From positions 1-32,121 of the forward strand of contig JAMCZU010000027.1 in the NCBI GenBank assembly GCA_023485405.1: 32,121 bases of DNA, read 5' to 3'. A program made the translations under genes and the position numbers. Position 1 is the stretch's first letter, and each line of letters starts with the position of its first letter. Origin of the DNA: Patescibacteria group bacterium (GTDB taxonomy: Bacteria > Patescibacteriota > UBA1384 > UBA12157 > JAENIV01). Below are positions 9,472 through 30,877 of the stretch, one piece after another. A model generated the notes under the pieces. The model saw only the letters and a list, made by a program, of their open reading frames with translations, was not told the DNA's origin and ran no database searches.

Positions 9472-10035
9472 ATGACTTTAGACGAAATTGCGATCGAAGT
9501 TCGCAAATGTACTAAATGCGCTCTTTCAAAAGGGCGAAAAAATGCCGTTCCGGGCGAAGGAAATTCCAAGGCTGAGATTCTTTTTATTGGTGAAGGGCCC
9601 GGTCAAAACGAAGATGCCCAAGGTAAACCCTTTGTCGGAGAAGCCGGTAAATTTTTAGAAGAAATGCTCTCTCTAATTAATTTTAAAAGAGAAGATGTTT
9701 TTATTGCCAATGTGGTTAAATGTCGCCCGCCTCATAACCGAGATCCGCTTGAAGAAGAAGTTGACGAGTGTGTTCGCAACTATTTATACGGTCAAATTAA
9801 AGCCATTAAACCAAAATTGATTGTGACTTTAGGTCGTCACTCGATGAGAGTCTTTTTTCCCCAAATTAAATCAATCTCATCGGTTCATGGCAAAGCTTAT
9901 AAAAAAGCTGACCAGGTCTATTTAATTCTTTATCATCCCGCGGCCGCTTTGTATCAAAGAAGTCTCGCCGAACAAATGAAAGAAGATTTTAAACAAATCC
10001 CAGAGATATTAGAAAAAATTAAAAAAGGAAATTAA
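9472..10035 (+). CDS. uracil-DNA glycosylase, family 4
   Basis: CTKCALSKGRKNAVPGEGNSKAEILFIGEGPGQNEDAQGKPFVGEAGKFL, NVVKCRPPHNRDP. Confidence 0.92.
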   Translation: MTLDEIAIEVRKCTKCALSKGRKNAVPGEGNSKAEILFIGEGPGQNEDAQGKPFVGEAGKFLEEMLSLINFKREDVFIANVVKCRPPHNRDPLEEEVDECVRNYLYGQIKAIKPKLIVTLGRHSMRVFFPQIKSISSVHGKAYKKADQVYLILYHPAAALYQRSLAEQMKEDFKQIPEILEKIKKGN

Positions 10036-11754
10036 ATGAATATTACAACTTTGCCCAGTAACGGGCCACAAACAAAACCCTTAAAAGTTTTTCGCGCTTT
10101 TACCCCGCGATTACGCATTATCCCCTTAGGTGGTAATGGTGAAATCGGTAAAAACATGATGATCTACGAATACGGTGATGATATTATCATTGTTGACTGT
10201 GGCATCATGTTCCCGCGCGGCGAAATGCTCGGGATTGATTTTATCATTCCTAACATCGCTTATTTAGAGGAACGAAAAGACAAAATTCGTGGGATTGTCT
10301 TTACTCATGGTCATGAAGACCATATTGGAGCTATACCTTATATTTGGCCGAAACTGCAAGCGCCAATTTTTGCGACCAAACTGACCGCTGGTTTTATTGA
10401 AGCGAAAATGACCGAATTTGGTCAACAACCAAATATTCGGGTAGTTACCGCTGGTGACAAGATTCAATTAGGAGTTTTTAAAATTGAATTTATCCCATTT
10501 TCTCATACTTTCTTAGATGACGTTGGGTTAGCAATTAATACCCCGGAAGGGATGGTTGTCCATATTGCTGACTTTAAGTTAGATCCGCAAAAACTCGAAT
10601 CCCAAAAAGTAATTGAAAAATTGGCACAGATGGGAGAACAAGGTGTCAAATGTTTATTACTTGAATCTACTAATGTGGAATATAAAGGCACACCAGTTTC
10701 CGAAAGTGTGGTTCACGACACGATTTCAGCGATTTTTAAACGGGCAAAGGGCCGACTAATTGTCACTTCTTTTGCTTCGTCTTTAGACCGAATTCAAGGT
10801 GTTTTGAACTCGGCGGCACGGACTCACAAAAAAGTAGCCATTTCCGGTCGTTCGATGGATAAAGCCATTAATATTGCGATGAATTTAGGTTATCTTAAAG
10901 TGCCGCGAGGGATTTTAGTAGACTTAAGACGAATCGAGCATATTCCGGACAATCAATTGATCATTCTTTGTACTGGTTCTCAAGGAGAAGAATATTCTGC
11001 CTTAGTCAGAATGGCCAGTGGTGAACACAAACAAGTTAAAATTAAAAAAGGCGACACAGTGGTGATTTCCGCTTCCGCTATTCCTGGTAATGAGCGCACA
11101 ATTTCCGATACCGTCAATAACTTATTTAAAGAAGGTGCCGATGTCTTTTATGGCAGTGAAGCGCAACGAATTCACTCTTCAGGGCATGCCAAACGGGATG
11201 AATTGCAGTTAGTGATTGAAAAAGTTAAACCAGAATATTTTATTCCAATTCATGGTGAATATCGTCATTTAGTTTTGCATACTCGGTTAGCCGAATCTTT
11301 AAACGTCAAAGAAGGTAACGCGGTGGTGTTGGAAGATGGTCAGATTTTTGAAATTCAAAGTGGCACTGGTCGCATTGCCAACGAAAAGACCGATGCTTCG
11401 TATGTTTTAGTTGATGGCTTAGGTGTAGGTGATGTGGGCAATATTGTCCTTCGTGACCGCCAGGCAATGGCTAAAGACGGTATTTTTGTGGTGATTCTGA
11501 CGGTTGATCACGAAAACGGTAAGATTGTGACTTCGCCTGATATTATTTCGCGCGGTTTTATTTATATGCGTGAACGAGAAGATTTGGTTTACAAAGCACG
11601 TCAAGAAGTCAAAAGAATGTTTACCCGTCACAACGAAAAATATCCAGCTAACTGGGACTTTATTAAGAAAGCCATTCGTCAGGAAATGGGCGAATTTCTC
11701 TATAAAGAAACCGAACGCCGCCCAATGATCATTCCGGTGATTATCGAGGTCTAA
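10036..11754 (+). CDS. rnj: ribonuclease J
   Basis: LRIIPLGGNGEIGKNMMIYEY, FTHGHEDHIGAIPY, HTFLDDVGLAI, IHSSGHAKRDEL, IPIHGEYRHL. Confidence 0.95.
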   Translation: MNITTLPSNGPQTKPLKVFRAFTPRLRIIPLGGNGEIGKNMMIYEYGDDIIIVDCGIMFPRGEMLGIDFIIPNIAYLEERKDKIRGIVFTHGHEDHIGAIPYIWPKLQAPIFATKLTAGFIEAKMTEFGQQPNIRVVTAGDKIQLGVFKIEFIPFSHTFLDDVGLAINTPEGMVVHIADFKLDPQKLESQKVIEKLAQMGEQGVKCLLLESTNVEYKGTPVSESVVHDTISAIFKRAKGRLIVTSFASSLDRIQGVLNSAARTHKKVAISGRSMDKAINIAMNLGYLKVPRGILVDLRRIEHIPDNQLIILCTGSQGEEYSALVRMASGEHKQVKIKKGDTVVISASAIPGNERTISDTVNNLFKEGADVFYGSEAQRIHSSGHAKRDELQLVIEKVKPEYFIPIHGEYRHLVLHTRLAESLNVKEGNAVVLEDGQIFEIQSGTGRIANEKTDASYVLVDGLGVGDVGNIVLRDRQAMAKDGIFVVILTVDHENGKIVTSPDIISRGFIYMREREDLVYKARQEVKRMFTRHNEKYPANWDFIKKAIRQEMGEFLYKETERRPMIIPVIIEV

Positions 11755-24197: not shown

Positions 24198-24230
24198 CAG
24201 TTATAGAAAGAATTGGTACAATATAGTTCA

Positions 24231-24245
24231 TGGAGAGGTCGCATA
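24231..24245 (+). repeat. duplicated tRNA-Ser 5' end fragment
   Basis: TGGAGAGGTCGCATA identical to 24339-24353. Confidence 0.8.
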
Positions 24246-24339: not shown

Positions 24340-24429
24340 GGAGAGGTCGCATAGTGGCCGAGTGCGCTCGCTTGGAAAGCGAGTAGGTCCGCAAGGGCCT
24401 CGCGAGTTCGAATCTCGCTCTCTCCGCCA
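24340..24429 (+). tRNA. tRNA-Ser(GGA), CCA encoded
   Basis: GGAGAGG...TCTCTCC-G-CCA acceptor, anticodon arm ctcgc-ttGGAaa-gcgag, long variable arm, gagTTCGAATctc T-arm. Confidence 0.95.
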
Positions 24430-24623
24430 GCAGCAGTTTGGAACTTTTCTTAAGGTGTGGAACAGAGTAAAAGATGAGGTAAAAGCGAGAAGAACCGTTT
24501 AAGGTTCTTTTTGTTGTTAAATGGACCCGTTTTGGTGCTTTTCTACAACCACGAGGAAGGGATTCGAACTTTTTTCTAAACCTTGAAAAGTGCCTTAGTT
24601 TGGAACTTTTTGAGTAGAATGAG

Positions 24624-26000
24624 CTATTTGATGATGAGTTCTCGGTTTTTGAGATAAATTGTGATATTTAAGCAGCCGATCAGCTCTCGTTTTTGATCTT
24701 TGGTGCCATCTTGGAAAATATAGCGTATGAATCCTGAAAGATCGATATTTTGTTCAATTTCGCTGTTATTAGGTTGGTAATCCTGTAAAGTCGTCTTAAT
24801 AACCATGAATTTGTCTAATTCCGGCTTAAGAATCTCTTTGGACCGGATTTCTTTAATTGAAACGTTCTTAAGCAAACAGGAAAGTTGCTCGACAAGTTTT
24901 TCTTCTCTTAGATAACGTTCATTGCAATCAAAGTTGTTAAACTGAGTGCAATGATAGTAAACATACCTTTTAATTTCACCGCTTTTGTAACGTTTGAACT
25001 TTTCTTGGGCGCTAATACCAGAATTACAGCTACCACATCTAAAGATTCTCGTAAAATCAAATTGTTTCGTTCCCGGTTTAGATTTAGGGGCGACTGTCAT
25101 CTTTTTTTGAACTGCATCAAAAAGCTCCCGGGAAATTATTGGTTCGTGCGCTCCTTTATACCACTTACCACTGCCTTGAGGAAATTCAAATAGCGAGCAA
25201 TAAAAAGTATTGTTTAGCATCCTGTAAATGACACTTAAGTTAAGAACATTGCCATTCCTACTTCGCAAATCAGTTTCGTTTTTCAACCATTCATAGACAT
25301 CACGACCGGAATATTTTTCATAGGCTACTTTTTCAAATATCTGTTTAATGATGGGAGCTCTTGCTTTATCAACAAAAACCTTTTTCATCCCTTTGCCCGA
25401 ATAGTGATCGTTTTCGTATCCTAAAGGCGTTAAGTTCGGTCTAAAACCCATTTCGCATTTGGCTCGGAACCCTCTTTTAACATTGATGCCCCTATTGTCG
25501 TTTTCCAATTTTGCCTGCGAGCAGAGAATCATAAGAAGAAATTTATCGTTTGGGCTATTGGTAAAAATTTGACCGTGAGTTCTAATTTCCTTTAGATAGC
25601 CGTTATCCATAAGGTCGATGATTGAACCCAGATCACCGGCATTTCTCGATAACCTGTCTGGTGCCCAACTAATAACTCCTTGGAATAAACCGTTCCTAAT
25701 ATCGGCCATCAATTGATTTAAGACTGGTCTTGTGCCGGTCATTTTGGCTGAATGGCTCTCTTTTTTGATATCAGTTACTAAAAGTCCTTCATTTTGAGCA
25801 TATGTGGCCATTTCTTTGATTTGGGAGTCGATTGAAAGGGCTTGGCGTTCGTCGTCTTCGGTACTTTTGCGCGCGTAAAGACAGTACTGAATTGTCGCTT
25901 TTTCTGCTTGAACTGCCTCAACAGGCCTCCCATTTTCTTCTTTAGGCAGCAAAATTGGCGAAGTATTGGTTAAATTTACTCCTTGAGTGTCCATTTTCAC
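24624..26000 (-). CDS. large serine recombinase
   Basis: YCLYARKSTEDDERQALSIDSQ, GVISWAPDRLSRNAGDLGSIIDLMD, recombinase domain, zinc ribbon FRCGSCNSG...YYHCTQFNNFDC. Confidence 0.95.
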   Translation of the reverse strand: MKMDTQGVNLTNTSPILLPKEENGRPVEAVQAEKATIQYCLYARKSTEDDERQALSIDSQIKEMATYAQNEGLLVTDIKKESHSAKMTGTRPVLNQLMADIRNGLFQGVISWAPDRLSRNAGDLGSIIDLMDNGYLKEIRTHGQIFTNSPNDKFLLMILCSQAKLENDNRGINVKRGFRAKCEMGFRPNLTPLGYENDHYSGKGMKKVFVDKARAPIIKQIFEKVAYEKYSGRDVYEWLKNETDLRSRNGNVLNLSVIYRMLNNTFYCSLFEFPQGSGKWYKGAHEPIISRELFDAVQKKMTVAPKSKPGTKQFDFTRIFRCGSCNSGISAQEKFKRYKSGEIKRYVYYHCTQFNNFDCNERYLREEKLVEQLSCLLKNVSIKEIRSKEILKPELDKFMVIKTTLQDYQPNNSEIEQNIDLSGFIRYIFQDGTKDQKRELIGCLNITIYLKNRELIIK

Positions 26001-26160
26001 TCCTTTACCTTATAGGTCAAGGGAGATGATACCGCCCCTGTTGGGGAAGTCAAGGCCTAATTTTTTGAAATCAGCCATAATGCCATTAAACCAGTAAAAA
26101 GCTTCCAAATTCATTTTACTTATGTTAAAATCAGAGTAGAAATTGCACATTATTTAATTT

Positions 26161-26290
26161 GGCCTAACCCTTAAGTTTTCTTAAGGCATGGCAATAAAAC
26201 CTATAAGAGATTTTAAGCTCGTCGTCAGAGCACTCTTATAGGTCGTATCTCGAAAGGGATATGGGTGATCGCAAGATCATCGCTGGCGGC
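26161..26290 (+). ncRNA. candidate structured RNA with four successive hairpins, two capped by GNRA tetraloops
   Basis: GCC-taac-CCTTAA-gttttc-TTAAGG-cat-GGC; ACCTATAAGAG/CTCTTATAGGT; TATCTC-GAAA-GGGATA; GGTGATC-GCAA-GATCATC. Confidence 0.55.
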
Positions 26291-26331
26291 GGGCTTTTTG
26301 TATTCCGACGTCCTAAATTCGATCAAAAAAA

Positions 26332-26730
26332 ATGAATATTGAAACCGTAGAACAATTTATCAAAAGAAAAAACGATTCATTCACAAAGAAAAATACTATT
26401 AATGTCAAAGATATTGGCAGAAACGGTAGGCATTTTTTTGTGCGAGAAGCTTGGACATTTATGCCTCAAGGAAACATGTCGGATAAGGTTTTTGTTATTG
26501 AGCGTCTAAGAAAAGATTCATATGAGGGCGAATTGTCTTATAAAGATAGTTGGAACAGGGGTGATATTGAGTATCGAGTTGGATATTATATTGTTGGTAA
26601 AATTGGTCGAGCCAACGGACGCTGGATTTGGGGTCAATTCTGTCCCATCATCCCAGCGGAAGATTTTATTAAATTATTAGAAAAAGCCAAAGAAGAAGGC
26701 ACAATAAAATTTGATAGAAAGGAAACATAA
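26332..26730 (+). CDS. hypothetical protein (132 aa)
   Basis: ATG ORF, ends abutting the next gene. Confidence 0.65.
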   Translation: MNIETVEQFIKRKNDSFTKKNTINVKDIGRNGRHFFVREAWTFMPQGNMSDKVFVIERLRKDSYEGELSYKDSWNRGDIEYRVGYYIVGKIGRANGRWIWGQFCPIIPAEDFIKLLEKAKEEGTIKFDRKET

Positions 26731-27290
26731 TGAGCGAACAAAAAAAGGGGATGTCAACTTTAGCAAAATTCGGCATTGGTTGCGGAGGCTTTATAGTTTT
26801 AATCATTATTATCGCTGTGATTTCTTTCAGTGGATCTTCAACTACGACACCAAGCTCTAATGGCAATCAAAACCAAAATAAACAAACGGAAGCTAAAAAA
26901 GAGTTTGCCCTCGGAGAGACAATTAATCTTAAAGACCATCAATTAGTGGTGAGCAATTTAGATGCCAATTATCAAACCGGTAATCCATATGAAAAGCCCC
27001 AAAGCCCAGATAACAGTTTTGTAATAGTAGATATTGCTGTTACCAATACAGGAAATAGGGATTTATTGGTTAATGATTGGGGTTTCAAATTGGAAGATGA
27101 AACGGGTACTCAAAGAAACACGTCATGGTTTTCTGGCGTTGATGGGCTATTACAATCAGTTACTCTTTCGCCGAATGGTAAAACATCGGGAAAGCTGGCT
27201 TTTGAAGCTAAAACGGGTAGTAGCAAATTAATCCTCCACTATTCTGGAAATATATCAAGCGGTGGTGAAATAACAATTAAATTAAAATAA
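26730..27290 (+). CDS. DUF4352-type membrane-anchored protein
   Basis: N-terminal TM, low-complexity linker, FALGETINLKDHQLVVSNL...NSFVIVDIAVTNTGNRDLLVNDWGFKLEDETG. Confidence 0.8.
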   Translation: MSEQKKGMSTLAKFGIGCGGFIVLIIIIAVISFSGSSTTTPSSNGNQNQNKQTEAKKEFALGETINLKDHQLVVSNLDANYQTGNPYEKPQSPDNSFVIVDIAVTNTGNRDLLVNDWGFKLEDETGTQRNTSWFSGVDGLLQSVTLSPNGKTSGKLAFEAKTGSSKLILHYSGNISSGGEITIKLK

Positions 27291-27303
27291 TCCATAAATC
27301 TTA

Positions 27304-28785
27304 TTATCTTGGACCGGCGTACCAAGGAGGTGGACCGTCGATAATAGTTAATCTTGGCTCAGATTTGGAGTTTTCTTCAATAATTTTTATCACAACCATG
27401 GTGAAGGCGTCGACCATGTCGTCATGAGGCACGCTGCCAAAATATACCATTTGATCAACAAATTCCACGGCGCCATATCTAGGAATAAGAACAACGCCAT
27501 TAAATATTACGGGAATTGTTCGTTTTAGACGGATATCTTTTCCCTCATGAATCGGTACTTCCTCAGCTTCTACTCCCTCATGTCTTAACTGTTCTATAAT
27601 CGAGCTTTGATAACCAACTGATTCGATATATTTGGTAATATATTCACCGGAATTTGCGTCCCGATCTAGTGTTTTTAATCTTTCAATACTTTCTCTGAAA
27701 TCTAACTTTTCGTTGATAATATATGGCAAGACGAAGATCCTCATATTCTCGTCATAACCATAAACTCTACAGATTATAACCGCAGTGTAATCATTTTTCC
27801 CACCTTTTTTAAGAGCCAGATCGACTCCACAATAGGTGCCCCGGTAGGGCATATCAGGATCGTCGTTTCTGGGTAGCTCGTCATAACGGTGAATCCATTC
27901 GGGATGAATTATTTGATCAACCTCAGGCAAAATGTGGAGTAAATATTCTTGTTCGAAAACGCGATCGCCAACACTATGACGTAATTCTTCAATTGATTCT
28001 GGATTTGGATACATCCCCGGCCACATACATTTTTCTTCCTCATCAATTAAAGGAAATTCTTTATATAAACCACCTCGCTTATTTTTTAGTATTTCCTCAT
28101 TTAACCGACGAACTAGACAATCTTCGTGTAATAGATTTGATATTACAATAATCTTGGTATTTAAATTACCCATTGGTACTATATCTCGGCAAAACCAGTT
28201 GAACATTTTATCTCTATTATCCGGGTTTTTCACACCCTCTAAATCCTCAAGATCGTCGCAAACTACAACATCGGGTCGGTGAGAACCGTGAATCATTCCG
28301 CGTAAACTCTGACCAGAGGAAACACACATTATTCTTGCTTTGTATCTTGCAACAACCACGGTTAACGCACCCCATTTGTCGTCGCCGTAAAGTGGCCCAA
28401 AATCTTTTTTTAATAACTCATTATTTTCAAGTTCTTCTCGGATATTTGCCATTCGCATTTCTGCTTGTTGTTGATCTTTGCAAATGATTAAAATAAATTT
28501 CTTCTTCTGCTCGCCAATAATACTCCATATAGGGTAAACCAAATCCATCATTGTGGTCTTACCTGATTGACGGAAACTAACAATTAAGGCAAGTTTAATC
28601 GACTCATCGCGGGCAATTTCTAAGATTTCTTTTTGGAAAGGAGCGATTTCAAATTGAGGGTCACGAGGGAGATAAATATAGAAAAACCAATAGGGGCTTT
28701 GCATTGCTAAATGGATTCTAAAGTTCCTATCTTTAATAATCCGTTCGTTTATTTCTTCATTTGGCGTTTTCATCCTTGTCCTCAT
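27304..28785 (-). CDS. phage terminase large subunit
   Basis: Walker A-like SFRQSGKTTMMD, Walker B VVVCDDLED, nuclease GVDLALKKGGKNDYTAVI and HDDMVDAFTMV. Confidence 0.93.
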   Translation of the reverse strand: MRTRMKTPNEEINERIIKDRNFRIHLAMQSPYWFFYIYLPRDPQFEIAPFQKEILEIARDESIKLALIVSFRQSGKTTMMDLVYPIWSIIGEQKKKFILIICKDQQQAEMRMANIREELENNELLKKDFGPLYGDDKWGALTVVVARYKARIMCVSSGQSLRGMIHGSHRPDVVVCDDLEDLEGVKNPDNRDKMFNWFCRDIVPMGNLNTKIIVISNLLHEDCLVRRLNEEILKNKRGGLYKEFPLIDEEEKCMWPGMYPNPESIEELRHSVGDRVFEQEYLLHILPEVDQIIHPEWIHRYDELPRNDDPDMPYRGTYCGVDLALKKGGKNDYTAVIICRVYGYDENMRIFVLPYIINEKLDFRESIERLKTLDRDANSGEYITKYIESVGYQSSIIEQLRHEGVEAEEVPIHEGKDIRLKRTIPVIFNGVVLIPRYGAVEFVDQMVYFGSVPHDDMVDAFTMVVIKIIEENSKSEPRLTIIDGPPPWYAGPR

Positions 28786-29215
28786 CTTTCATTTCTTGTA
28801 GGTCAGGTACCGGAACCATGACCGGTTCTGGCGCTGCTAATTCCAAAGCTTTTTTAATCAAATCTTCTTGCTCAGCTGTTAAAGACAGGGGTTCATTACT
28901 TTTAGCCGACACTTCAAGTTTATTAATAAATTTGGGATTTCTGTGATTTAACCAGTAGAAAACTGCTTGGAGATTGCCATTTTGAATTGCGGCCAGTAGT
29001 TGACTTTCGGCCAAGTCTGAAACAATACCGGCGCCTTCTTCGATAGCCACTTCGACGCTCAAAGCAAATTCCTCATCCTCATGAATCCAGCGATAGTATG
29101 TCGATCGACCAACCTCACATTTCTTACAAGCGATTTCGACAATTGGTGTTTGTTTGAGCTGCTCGATGATCTGATTTTTTTGTTTTTGTTGACGGTGTTC
29201 AATAGTATTACTCAT
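28757..29215 (-). CDS. phage terminase small subunit-like HTH protein
   Basis: TPIVEIACKKCEVGRSTYYRWIHEDEEFALSVEVAIEEGAGIVSDLAESQLLAAIQNGNLQAVFYWLNHRNPKF; overlaps the terL start. Confidence 0.8.
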   Translation of the reverse strand: MSNTIEHRQQKQKNQIIEQLKQTPIVEIACKKCEVGRSTYYRWIHEDEEFALSVEVAIEEGAGIVSDLAESQLLAAIQNGNLQAVFYWLNHRNPKFINKLEVSAKSNEPLSLTAEQEDLIKKALELAAPEPVMVPVPDLQEMKDEDKDENAK

Positions 29216-29228
29216 TTCAAACCCCTTT

Positions 29229-30563
29229 CTAATTCATTTTTATTGGTTTAGTGTGGGTTAGTATCTCGATGCGTCGTAGGATTACCTGCGCATAAGTTGG
29301 ACTTTTCTCAATTAGATAACAACGGCGTTTCATTTTAAGCGCGGCGGCTGCCGTGCTGCCTGAACCCCCAAAGGGTTCAATAATTAAGTCATTTCTTCGA
29401 GTTAAAACCTTGATGTATGGTATGAGAATTTCCAACGGTTTTACGCCGAAAATGATCGATTGCCCCGAAGATTTTTCGTCAGCTGCATTATATTCAATGA
29501 AATCTGTGGGACAAATCGCTTTTCCTTTTCCGTAATTTTCCCAGTGTGGTTTTCCGGAAATTGCGTAAAGAGCGGTAGAATACTCTTCCTGAAGCCCATC
29601 TTTTTCAATTTCTAGGTTGTACTTGATATCTTGACCCTTAGAAGCTCCAACCATGGCTATATCATGCTTTGAAAAGAACCTATATTTTGAAGCAAAAGCC
29701 TGATTGCGATTAGGCAAATGCCAGACAATCATGTTTTTTACGGACCAATGTTTCTCAATTTCGCCCCAAATGTTTCGGAGGTTGCGCCAGTTTTCGTAGA
29801 CTATAATGCTAAATGATTCTTTTTGAATCTTAGCGACATTTTTCATCCAAAGTTCGGTAAAGTTTTCCGGCAAAACGTCAGTCTCTAAATATCTTCTATT
29901 TCGTTTCGAGCCAAAACCCAAAGTTGGTTTACCGTGACGCTTGGCGTTTAAGTAATCGAGCTGATATGGGGGATCGGTGAGGCAAAGATCGGCGCGTTCG
30001 TTCCCCATAAGTTTTAAGACATCGGCTTCAATGGTGCTGTCGCCGCAAAGTAATTTGAATTGATTCTCACCGATAGTGTAAATATCTCCTTTTTGCACTG
30101 TGATTTTTTGAATGTCTAATTTTTTCAATTCTTTTTCCAAATCCCAATTTTCCGGTGTATTTTCAATGCCAAAGATGTCGTCAAGTGCCTCTGAATCAAA
30201 CCCAATATCAGTGAGAAGATTCTCATCAAAAGCCTTAAGCAAATCAAAATCAAACTCTCCTAAATTTTTATTGAGACGAATATTAAGTTCTTTCTCTTTT
30301 TCAATATCTGGAATTTGGATGTAAACTACCGGAACTTCGGTATAGCCCAAATCCTTAGCTATTTTTAACCTGAAATGGCCGCCAATTACAATGTTTTTGC
30401 GATTCTCGGCACCATTTACCAGTAGGGCATCGACCAGCCCATACTTTTTGATACTCTCGGTCAGATCACTGACTGCCTTGTCTGACCACCGGCGTGGATT
30501 GTATACGCTCGGTTTTAAGTCTTTAACCGGCACATACACAACCTTCAGTTGTTCTTGAGGCAT
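29229..30563 (-). CDS. ParB-like nuclease domain fused to DNA methyltransferase
   Basis: VKDLKPSVYNPRRWSDKAVSDLTESIKKYGLVDALLVN...VIGGHFRLKIAKDLGY; LCLTDPPYQLDY; EPFGGSGSTAAAALKMKRRCYLIEKSP. Confidence 0.92.
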   Translation of the reverse strand: MPQEQLKVVYVPVKDLKPSVYNPRRWSDKAVSDLTESIKKYGLVDALLVNGAENRKNIVIGGHFRLKIAKDLGYTEVPVVYIQIPDIEKEKELNIRLNKNLGEFDFDLLKAFDENLLTDIGFDSEALDDIFGIENTPENWDLEKELKKLDIQKITVQKGDIYTIGENQFKLLCGDSTIEADVLKLMGNERADLCLTDPPYQLDYLNAKRHGKPTLGFGSKRNRRYLETDVLPENFTELWMKNVAKIQKESFSIIVYENWRNLRNIWGEIEKHWSVKNMIVWHLPNRNQAFASKYRFFSKHDIAMVGASKGQDIKYNLEIEKDGLQEEYSTALYAISGKPHWENYGKGKAICPTDFIEYNAADEKSSGQSIIFGVKPLEILIPYIKVLTRRNDLIIEPFGGSGSTAAAALKMKRRCYLIEKSPTYAQVILRRIEILTHTKPIKMN

Positions 30564-30581
30564 AATGCCTCCTTTCTTTTG

Positions 30582-30596
30582 GCGAGCAAAGCTCGC
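30582..30596 (-). promoter_or_regulatory. hairpin immediately upstream of the methyltransferase SD
   Basis: GCGAGC-TTT-GCTCGC on the minus strand, followed by CAAAAGAAAGGAGGCATTATG. Confidence 0.55.
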
Positions 30597-30621
30597 AATT
30601 ATTACTTACTTTTTAAAACAC

Positions 30622-30679
30622 AAAAAAATCCGATGTTTTCATTCGGGCCTCAAAGGGCCTCATCGGACTTCAAAGAGTC
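30622..30679 (-). promoter_or_regulatory. attenuator-like leader: terminator hairpin plus twin hairpins with identical hexaloops
   Basis: Minus strand TCCGATG...CATCGGA-TTTTTTT; GACT-CTTTGA-AGTC and GGCC-CTTTGA-GGCC. Confidence 0.6.
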
Positions 30680-30732
30680 TTAATTTAATATTTTATTGTT
30701 GAAATTACGAGTTATCTTCTAACCTTGCTTAC

Positions 30733-30762
30733 ATTATACCATATTTCTTGTTATATTGTCAA
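30733..30762 (-). promoter_or_regulatory. consensus promoter for methyltransferase-terS-terL operon (TTGACA-18-TATAAT)
   Basis: TTGACA at 30762-30757, TATAAT at 30738-30733 on the minus strand. Confidence 0.75.
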
Positions 30763-30877
30763 ATCTTGGGGCATTAAATCTTATAGCCATACCAAATAGT
30801 TGATTGTAATTGACAAATATAATAGGTGTAATTACAGGTATTAAATTACAATAAATGACAAGAACTGACAGAAGGTA

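Follow-up and report, generated by a model that had tools for sequence, protein, structure and literature searches.

A complete terminase without a capsid: a probable family of integrative phage satellites in the Patescibacteria

Introduction

The Patescibacteria rank with the most diverse groups of bacteria, and only a small number of their mobile elements are understood. The stretch of DNA considered here ("the window") is one whole contig (G000:C20, 32,121 bp) of a Patescibacteria MAG of 833 kb in 37 contigs, estimated at 95% complete. Beside a tRNA-Ser gene it carries a large serine recombinase, both terminase subunits and a DNA methyltransferase, packed together with no portal, protease or capsid gene in view. 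What is a packaging motor doing in an integrated element with nothing of its own to package into? The original prediction, made from the sequence of the window, offered a packaging satellite or a domesticated or decayed prophage, and leaned against simple decay. The comparisons below suggest that the window element is probably a member of an integrative phage satellite family, found across the Patescibacteria, with a complete terminase and no capsid.

Gene content of the window

From left to right, the region runs from the end of ppsA through tRNA-Ser(GGA), the recombinase (−), a LOOT RNA (+), a 132-aa ORF and a DUF4352 gene (both +), and TerL, TerS and the ParB-methyltransferase (all −) to the end of the contig. 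The contig stops about 1.56 kb beyond the methyltransferase, and the element's right end falls off it. The features are:

24340..24429, + strand: tRNA-Ser(GGA), the insertion site, 3' end toward the recombinase (ARAGORN, Rfam)
24435..24448, + strand: direct repeat AGTTTGGAACTTTT, copy 1, 14 bp, starting 6 nt past the tRNA
24597..24610, + strand: direct repeat AGTTTGGAACTTTT, copy 2, 14 bp, directly beyond the recombinase stop
24624..26000, − strand: large serine recombinase (integrase), core gene (PF00239 2.6e-20, PF07508 1.1e-11, phrog_95 7.8e-58)
26161..26281, + strand: LOOT RNA (RF03000), a structured small RNA (94.5 bits; cut-off 46.4)
26332..26730, + strand: 132-aa cargo protein, no Pfam or PHROG family
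26730..27290, + strand: DUF4352 cargo protein with an N-terminal hydrophobic stretch (PF11611 7.8e-20; phrog_806 4.6e-26)
27304..28785, − strand: TerL, core gene (phrog_38 1.1e-77; conserved motifs; fold match to large terminases)
28757..29215, − strand: TerS, core gene (phrog_24579 3.5e-8; 40-member family alignment; weak fold matches)
29229..30563, − strand: ParB-N plus N6/N4 DNA methyltransferase, core gene (PF02195 1.9e-9, PF01555 2e-20, phrog_498 1.8e-70)

Gene calls and the Pfam and PHROG matches bear out the gene list of the original prediction: the recombinase, two small proteins, TerL, TerS and the ParB-methyltransferase are all present and intact beside tRNA-Ser, and the window contains no structural gene. 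The LOOT RNA inside the element had been missed. The catalytic motifs said to be intact were found in both proteins, with Walker A (FRQSGKTT at 71), VVCDDLED at 174 and nuclease residues D322 and DD455-456 in TerL, and YARKS and PDRLSRN in the recombinase. The predicted fold of TerL has its best PDB matches among phage large terminases (PhiV-1, 1.7e-20; HK97, 4.1e-14). The identities and catalytic motifs of the recombinase, TerL and methyltransferase are solid. The TerS assignment combines moderate PHROG scores, gene position and the 40-member family; the top fold matches are to Sf6 and other small terminases, none of them significant (best E 0.31).

Several of these proteins have recognizable relatives. 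The recombinase is 62% identical to that of G078, and the methyltransferase 62–71% identical to relatives with the same fused form. The DUF4352 protein has a 58% identical relative in L179, in the same position beside TerL, and the 132-aa protein has one relative, at 56%, among 60 other genomes.

Insertion site and mobility

The recX-ppsA-tRNA-Ser(GGA) order is conserved in genomes of the same family (G001) and the same order (G002, where recA is included as well). Unrelated genes follow the tRNA in both, with neither recombinase nor terminase, so the block was most simply inserted beside the tRNA in the window's lineage. Comparison of occupied and empty tRNA-Ser loci, proposed in the original prediction as a way to define both ends of the element, thus yielded a site without the element but no position for the right end. 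This end is not placed because the contig stops, repeat searches of the window found no attachment repeat that joins the tRNA side with the right flank, and the TrmB-like regulator tried for right-flank synteny belongs to a family that is multicopy in relatives and does not adjoin tRNA-Ser there. The 14-bp repeat AGTTTGGAACTTTT, with no third copy elsewhere in the genome, could be a remnant or core of an attachment site, or the mark of an earlier integration. Two tRNA-like stretches also lie nearby. At 24224–24245, 108 bp before the intact gene, the first nucleotides of tRNA-Ser and some upstream bases are copied, perhaps as a truncated tRNA remnant; at about 24550–24572 (−), between tRNA-Ser and the recombinase, there is a T-arm-like stretch, GTTCGAATCCCTTCC; L044 has a similar one after its recombinase.

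Two relatives are bounded on both sides. In L052, direct repeats of 34 bp overlap the 3' end of a tRNA-Ser and enclose the whole block in 9.6 kb; in L090, repeats of 29 bp overlap the 3' end of a tRNA-His and enclose 18.8 kb. In most other relatives no flanking repeat rose above control level, where the next best scores also lie. Among full-length recombinases with a tRNA no more than 250 bp from the stop, the tRNA is convergent with the recombinase in 12 of 12. Insertion at tRNA 3' ends is frequent in this family, and several genomes (G024, G067, G198, G384) hold at least two different elements.

A recurring four-gene core

TerL relatives were sought first in related genomes and then, with an 11-row profile, in GTDB genomes (the best 80 of 209 relatives were kept) and in IMG/VR, where the profile gave 37 matches and a single-sequence search with the window TerL none. 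The combination of recombinase, ParB-methyltransferase, TerS and TerL, which the original prediction had suggested looking for in related genomes, recurs across the Patescibacteria, in genomes from many candidate phyla as well as in IMG/VR. Among 149 TerL loci, of which 62 are flanked by 8 kb or more on either side, 133 include the methyltransferase, 103 the recombinase, and 95 both. Gene order is nearly everywhere methyltransferase-TerS-TerL-recombinase, with zero to several cargo genes between the last two; where there is more cargo, it usually lies on the other strand, upstream of the methyltransferase. When 133 loci were clustered all against all, four families stood out as common, with members in 130, 121, 119, and 102 loci; DUF4352, which ranks next and is also in the window, occurs in just 31. 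The core consists of four genes only: ParB-methyltransferase, TerS, TerL and serine recombinase.

When 382 genomes were drawn evenly across the phylum, the family TerL was found in about one in ten (40, including a few true prophages or fragments), compared with 11 that have a PF04860 portal. Of the best 80 among the 209 GTDB loci, nearly all are assigned to Patescibacteria lineages or to unnamed bacteria; three carry the labels Bacillota, Omnitrophota, and Pacearchaeota and may be binning errors. Two variations on the core were seen. Elements of Peregrinibacteria/Peribacteria type (L101, L114, L059, L096, L126, L131, L150, L177) have a tandem double TerL, and in L196 a very different TerL (9645–11099; 136 bits vs. 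480–780) lies beside the usual methyltransferase, TerS and recombinase, possibly a motor swap.

Structural genes, resident prophages and selection

True prophages do occur in the sampled genomes. In four of them (L163–L166) the gene immediately after a more distant TerL is a portal gene, and then come a protease and a major capsid gene. HMMs for portal, protease and capsid, built from prophage proteins, matched no element locus except for one 136-aa ORF at chance level. Apart from that ORF, matches in the 149 loci are confined to those whose TerL is unrelated or in the portal-linked clade, and the block was nowhere seen as the left arm of a full prophage, the arrangement that the original prediction had named as evidence against it. 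Its other reservation, that structural genes might lie just outside the window, can be answered in part: none are found in relatives of the element, and the window's own genome (95% complete) has no match to portal PF04860 or HK97-type capsid PF05065, but the contig end leaves the immediate neighbourhood out of view. By the same two families, the co-resident phage that the original prediction suggested looking for did not turn up in the host genome.

In a TerL tree of 50 rows, a single branch parts portal-linked from element TerLs (support 100/99; 200 of 200 bootstrap trees). The tree was built without L194, L196 and L197, the last two of which gave very long branches in a first tree. Because its root is not fixed, no claim is made as to whether the element or the prophage TerL came first. 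The IMG/VR contig L149, in which methyltransferase and TerL are followed by a portal fragment, has a TerL that groups with phages. Elements and portal-bearing prophages share a genome in G198, G067, and G037. This amounts to a portal-bearing prophage in 3 of 36 genomes vs. 8 of 346 (Fisher p 0.075), an enrichment that is only suggestive, and in these three genomes element and prophage have no long DNA in common, only chance-sized k-mers.

Element TerLs are under strong purifying selection: in relatives, pairwise dN/dS is 0.014–0.09 for almost every pair whose dS was usable, and TerS, methyltransferase and recombinase gave similar values. The terL dN/dS proposed in the original prediction thus applies to relatives; the window TerL is itself a long branch (best identity 43%) with no near relative, so the case for it is its intact frame and motifs.

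Cargo and the LOOT RNA

Cargo was tallied for 124 proteins from TerL-recombinase intervals and bounded elements. ResIII helicases account for 10 of these; cargo also includes KAP/STAND NTPases, type I and Eco57I restriction-modification enzymes, DUF4352 proteins, SNase, and reverse transcriptases of the diversity-generating type with bAvd partners. No structural family is among the 25 commonest PHROG/Pfam matches. A PADLOC tally consists mostly of reverse-transcriptase models and adds little. Reverse transcriptase and bAvd pairs (diversity-generating retroelements) were noted in L078, L081, L090, L110, L060, and L115 (clusters 7 and 13).

Elements whose cores are alike have swapped cargo. L084 and L088 have about 88% DNA identity in the core, one with a KAP NTPase and the other with a type I restriction enzyme. 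L095 (Falkowbacteria) and L097 (Uhrbacteria), lineage labels from short-contig bins that can be wrong, share 5.1 kb at 92.6% and carry an Eco57I-type enzyme and a STAND-like NTPase, respectively. LexA/S24-type repressors, present in 20 loci and mostly upstream of the methyltransferase, suggest damage-inducible control by analogy with prophages. LOOT RNA occurs in 83 of 382 Patescibacteria genomes and is absent from all 14 control genomes. Of its 125 matches, 15 are no more than 10 kb from an element TerL, against about 0.3 expected by a hand estimate from genome sizes if they were evenly spread. It may be a mobile-element RNA.

What the element may be

A terminase and an integrase are prophage hallmarks, and a few members of the family do decay, with a stop in the TerL of G003 and fragments in G007 and G081. 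Decay of a prophage, with the structural genes lost here and the remaining genes as relics, is nevertheless rejected because the block recurs without structural genes (the same four genes in about 100 loci), its TerLs form a clade distinct from portal-linked ones, relatives have low dN/dS indicative of purifying selection, some are bounded, and their cargo is swapped. The window ORFs are intact, and neither structural-gene remnants nor relaxed selection emerged from the HMMs, dN/dS or the TerL tree. We consider decay very improbable, in agreement with the leaning of the original prediction; the best reading is the first of its options, a packaging satellite that uses its own terminase and a borrowed capsid.

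There are two further alternatives. The element could be a domesticated defence island, in which TerS and TerL have ceased to package the element and instead disturb the packaging of infecting phages, and the recombinase spreads the island by other routes. The cargo is indeed rich in restriction-modification and NTPase defence genes, and in many carriers, among them the window's host, no resident helper was detected; but all ATPase and nuclease motifs of TerL are kept, a complete TerS-TerL pair is what packaging requires, and mobility across lineages would need another explanation. This seems unlikely, if less so than an autonomous element with an unrecognized shell of its own, its capsid and portal hidden among unknown cargo or past the contig end. 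Numerous cargo ORFs belong to no known family, and the window element runs off the contig on its right, both of which leave room for such genes. Against this, no common shell gene is detectable by sequence, since no non-core family is in more than 31 of 133 loci; the commonest cargo matches are likewise devoid of structural families, and both bounded elements are small (9.6 and 18.8 kb). We regard an own shell as improbable.

For a packaging satellite, a cycle can be proposed in which infection by a tailed phage, or its induction, would lead the recombinase to excise the element. The methyltransferase might mark or protect element DNA, TerS would select it, and TerL would dock on the portal of helper proheads, so that the element ends up packed in particles of the helper. 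After entry into another cell, insertion beside a tRNA would again fall to the recombinase. Maintenance is probably paid for by the cargo (restriction-modification, KAP/STAND NTPases and reverse transcriptases; here the DUF4352 and 132-aa proteins), through host protection or surface-protein variation. Both the encapsidation of the elements and their dependence on a helper are inferred.

If these are satellites, they add a packaging strategy, with own TerS and TerL and a borrowed shell, and give defence genes a way to move between very small genomes. Terminase-based virus calls in Patescibacteria would then be inflated: 34 of the 37 IMG/VR contigs with an element-family TerL (L116–L152) have no portal in the stretch examined, and may be satellites, not viruses. 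Groundwater Patescibacteria are reported to have a high density of defence genes, with phages and prophages making up 73% of their mobile elements (PMC12259885); elements of this kind could explain part of both findings. The chances seem even that terminase-only satellites are, phylum-wide, a main shuttle of defence and retroelement cargo among Patescibacteria lineages, that they have kept a motor lineage distinct from the one in resident phages, and that they are catalogued as viruses or prophages.

Comparison with known systems

A phage satellite in the broad sense is not a phage, and encodes mechanisms or signals that favour its packaging in phage-made particles (PMC11389934). The elements described here have no full structural gene set in their loci, and the window's own genome has no match to the two portal and capsid families searched. 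They encode an integrase and integrate at specific chromosomal sites, as seen from the recombinase, the bounded L052 and L090, and the empty sites of G001 and G002 (the window has the tRNA side only). Their TerS and TerL genes, with intact motifs, would be able to redirect packaging. They resemble P4-like satellites, PICIs, PLEs, and PICMIs in being small and integrated, with an incomplete virion gene set, an integrase, packaging or regulatory functions, and often anti-phage cargo. They differ from satellites in general in a core with a complete TerS-TerL motor and no capsid gene, a large serine recombinase, and a Patescibacteria host. VEIMEs and tycheposons of marine bacteria are also integrative elements proposed as satellites (PMC11389934).

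Tailed prophages of Patescibacteria (L163–L166, L168) have portal, protease and major capsid genes after TerL, and a TerL clade separate from that of the elements; the TerLs of L163–L166 are of the same broad family. The P4 gene set comprises sid, psu, delta, and the alpha primase. No window ORF matched the P4 gene families (Pfam, PHROG), and the cargo tally covers the 25 commonest families. The integrase of a prototypical PICI is of the tyrosine type, whereas here it is a serine recombinase. P4 and prototypical PICIs use the TerL of their helper (PMC10690885); in the elements TerL is present and conserved.

A helper need not be resident, since none of 17 prophages of its own strain detectably mobilized an E. 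coli cfPICI (PMC11389934). No literature joining Patescibacteria with phage satellites was found (subscription papers and preprints were outside the scope), and a search on candidate phyla radiation, terminase and serine recombinase returned inovirus work and no such satellite. As far as this search reached the family was previously unnamed, which is not proof that it has never been described.

Close parallels are the cfPICIs and the Mulch and Flayer satellites of Streptomyces, which carry small and large terminase genes, but together with capsid genes (PMC10690885). They have their own portal and major capsid and take tails from the helper, whereas the elements here have neither portal nor capsid, and so not the capsid, portal, connector and terminase set that defines a cfPICI. 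Because the defining features of both groups were tested and are absent, the element family is best taken as a kind of phage satellite that is neither a PICI nor a cfPICI.
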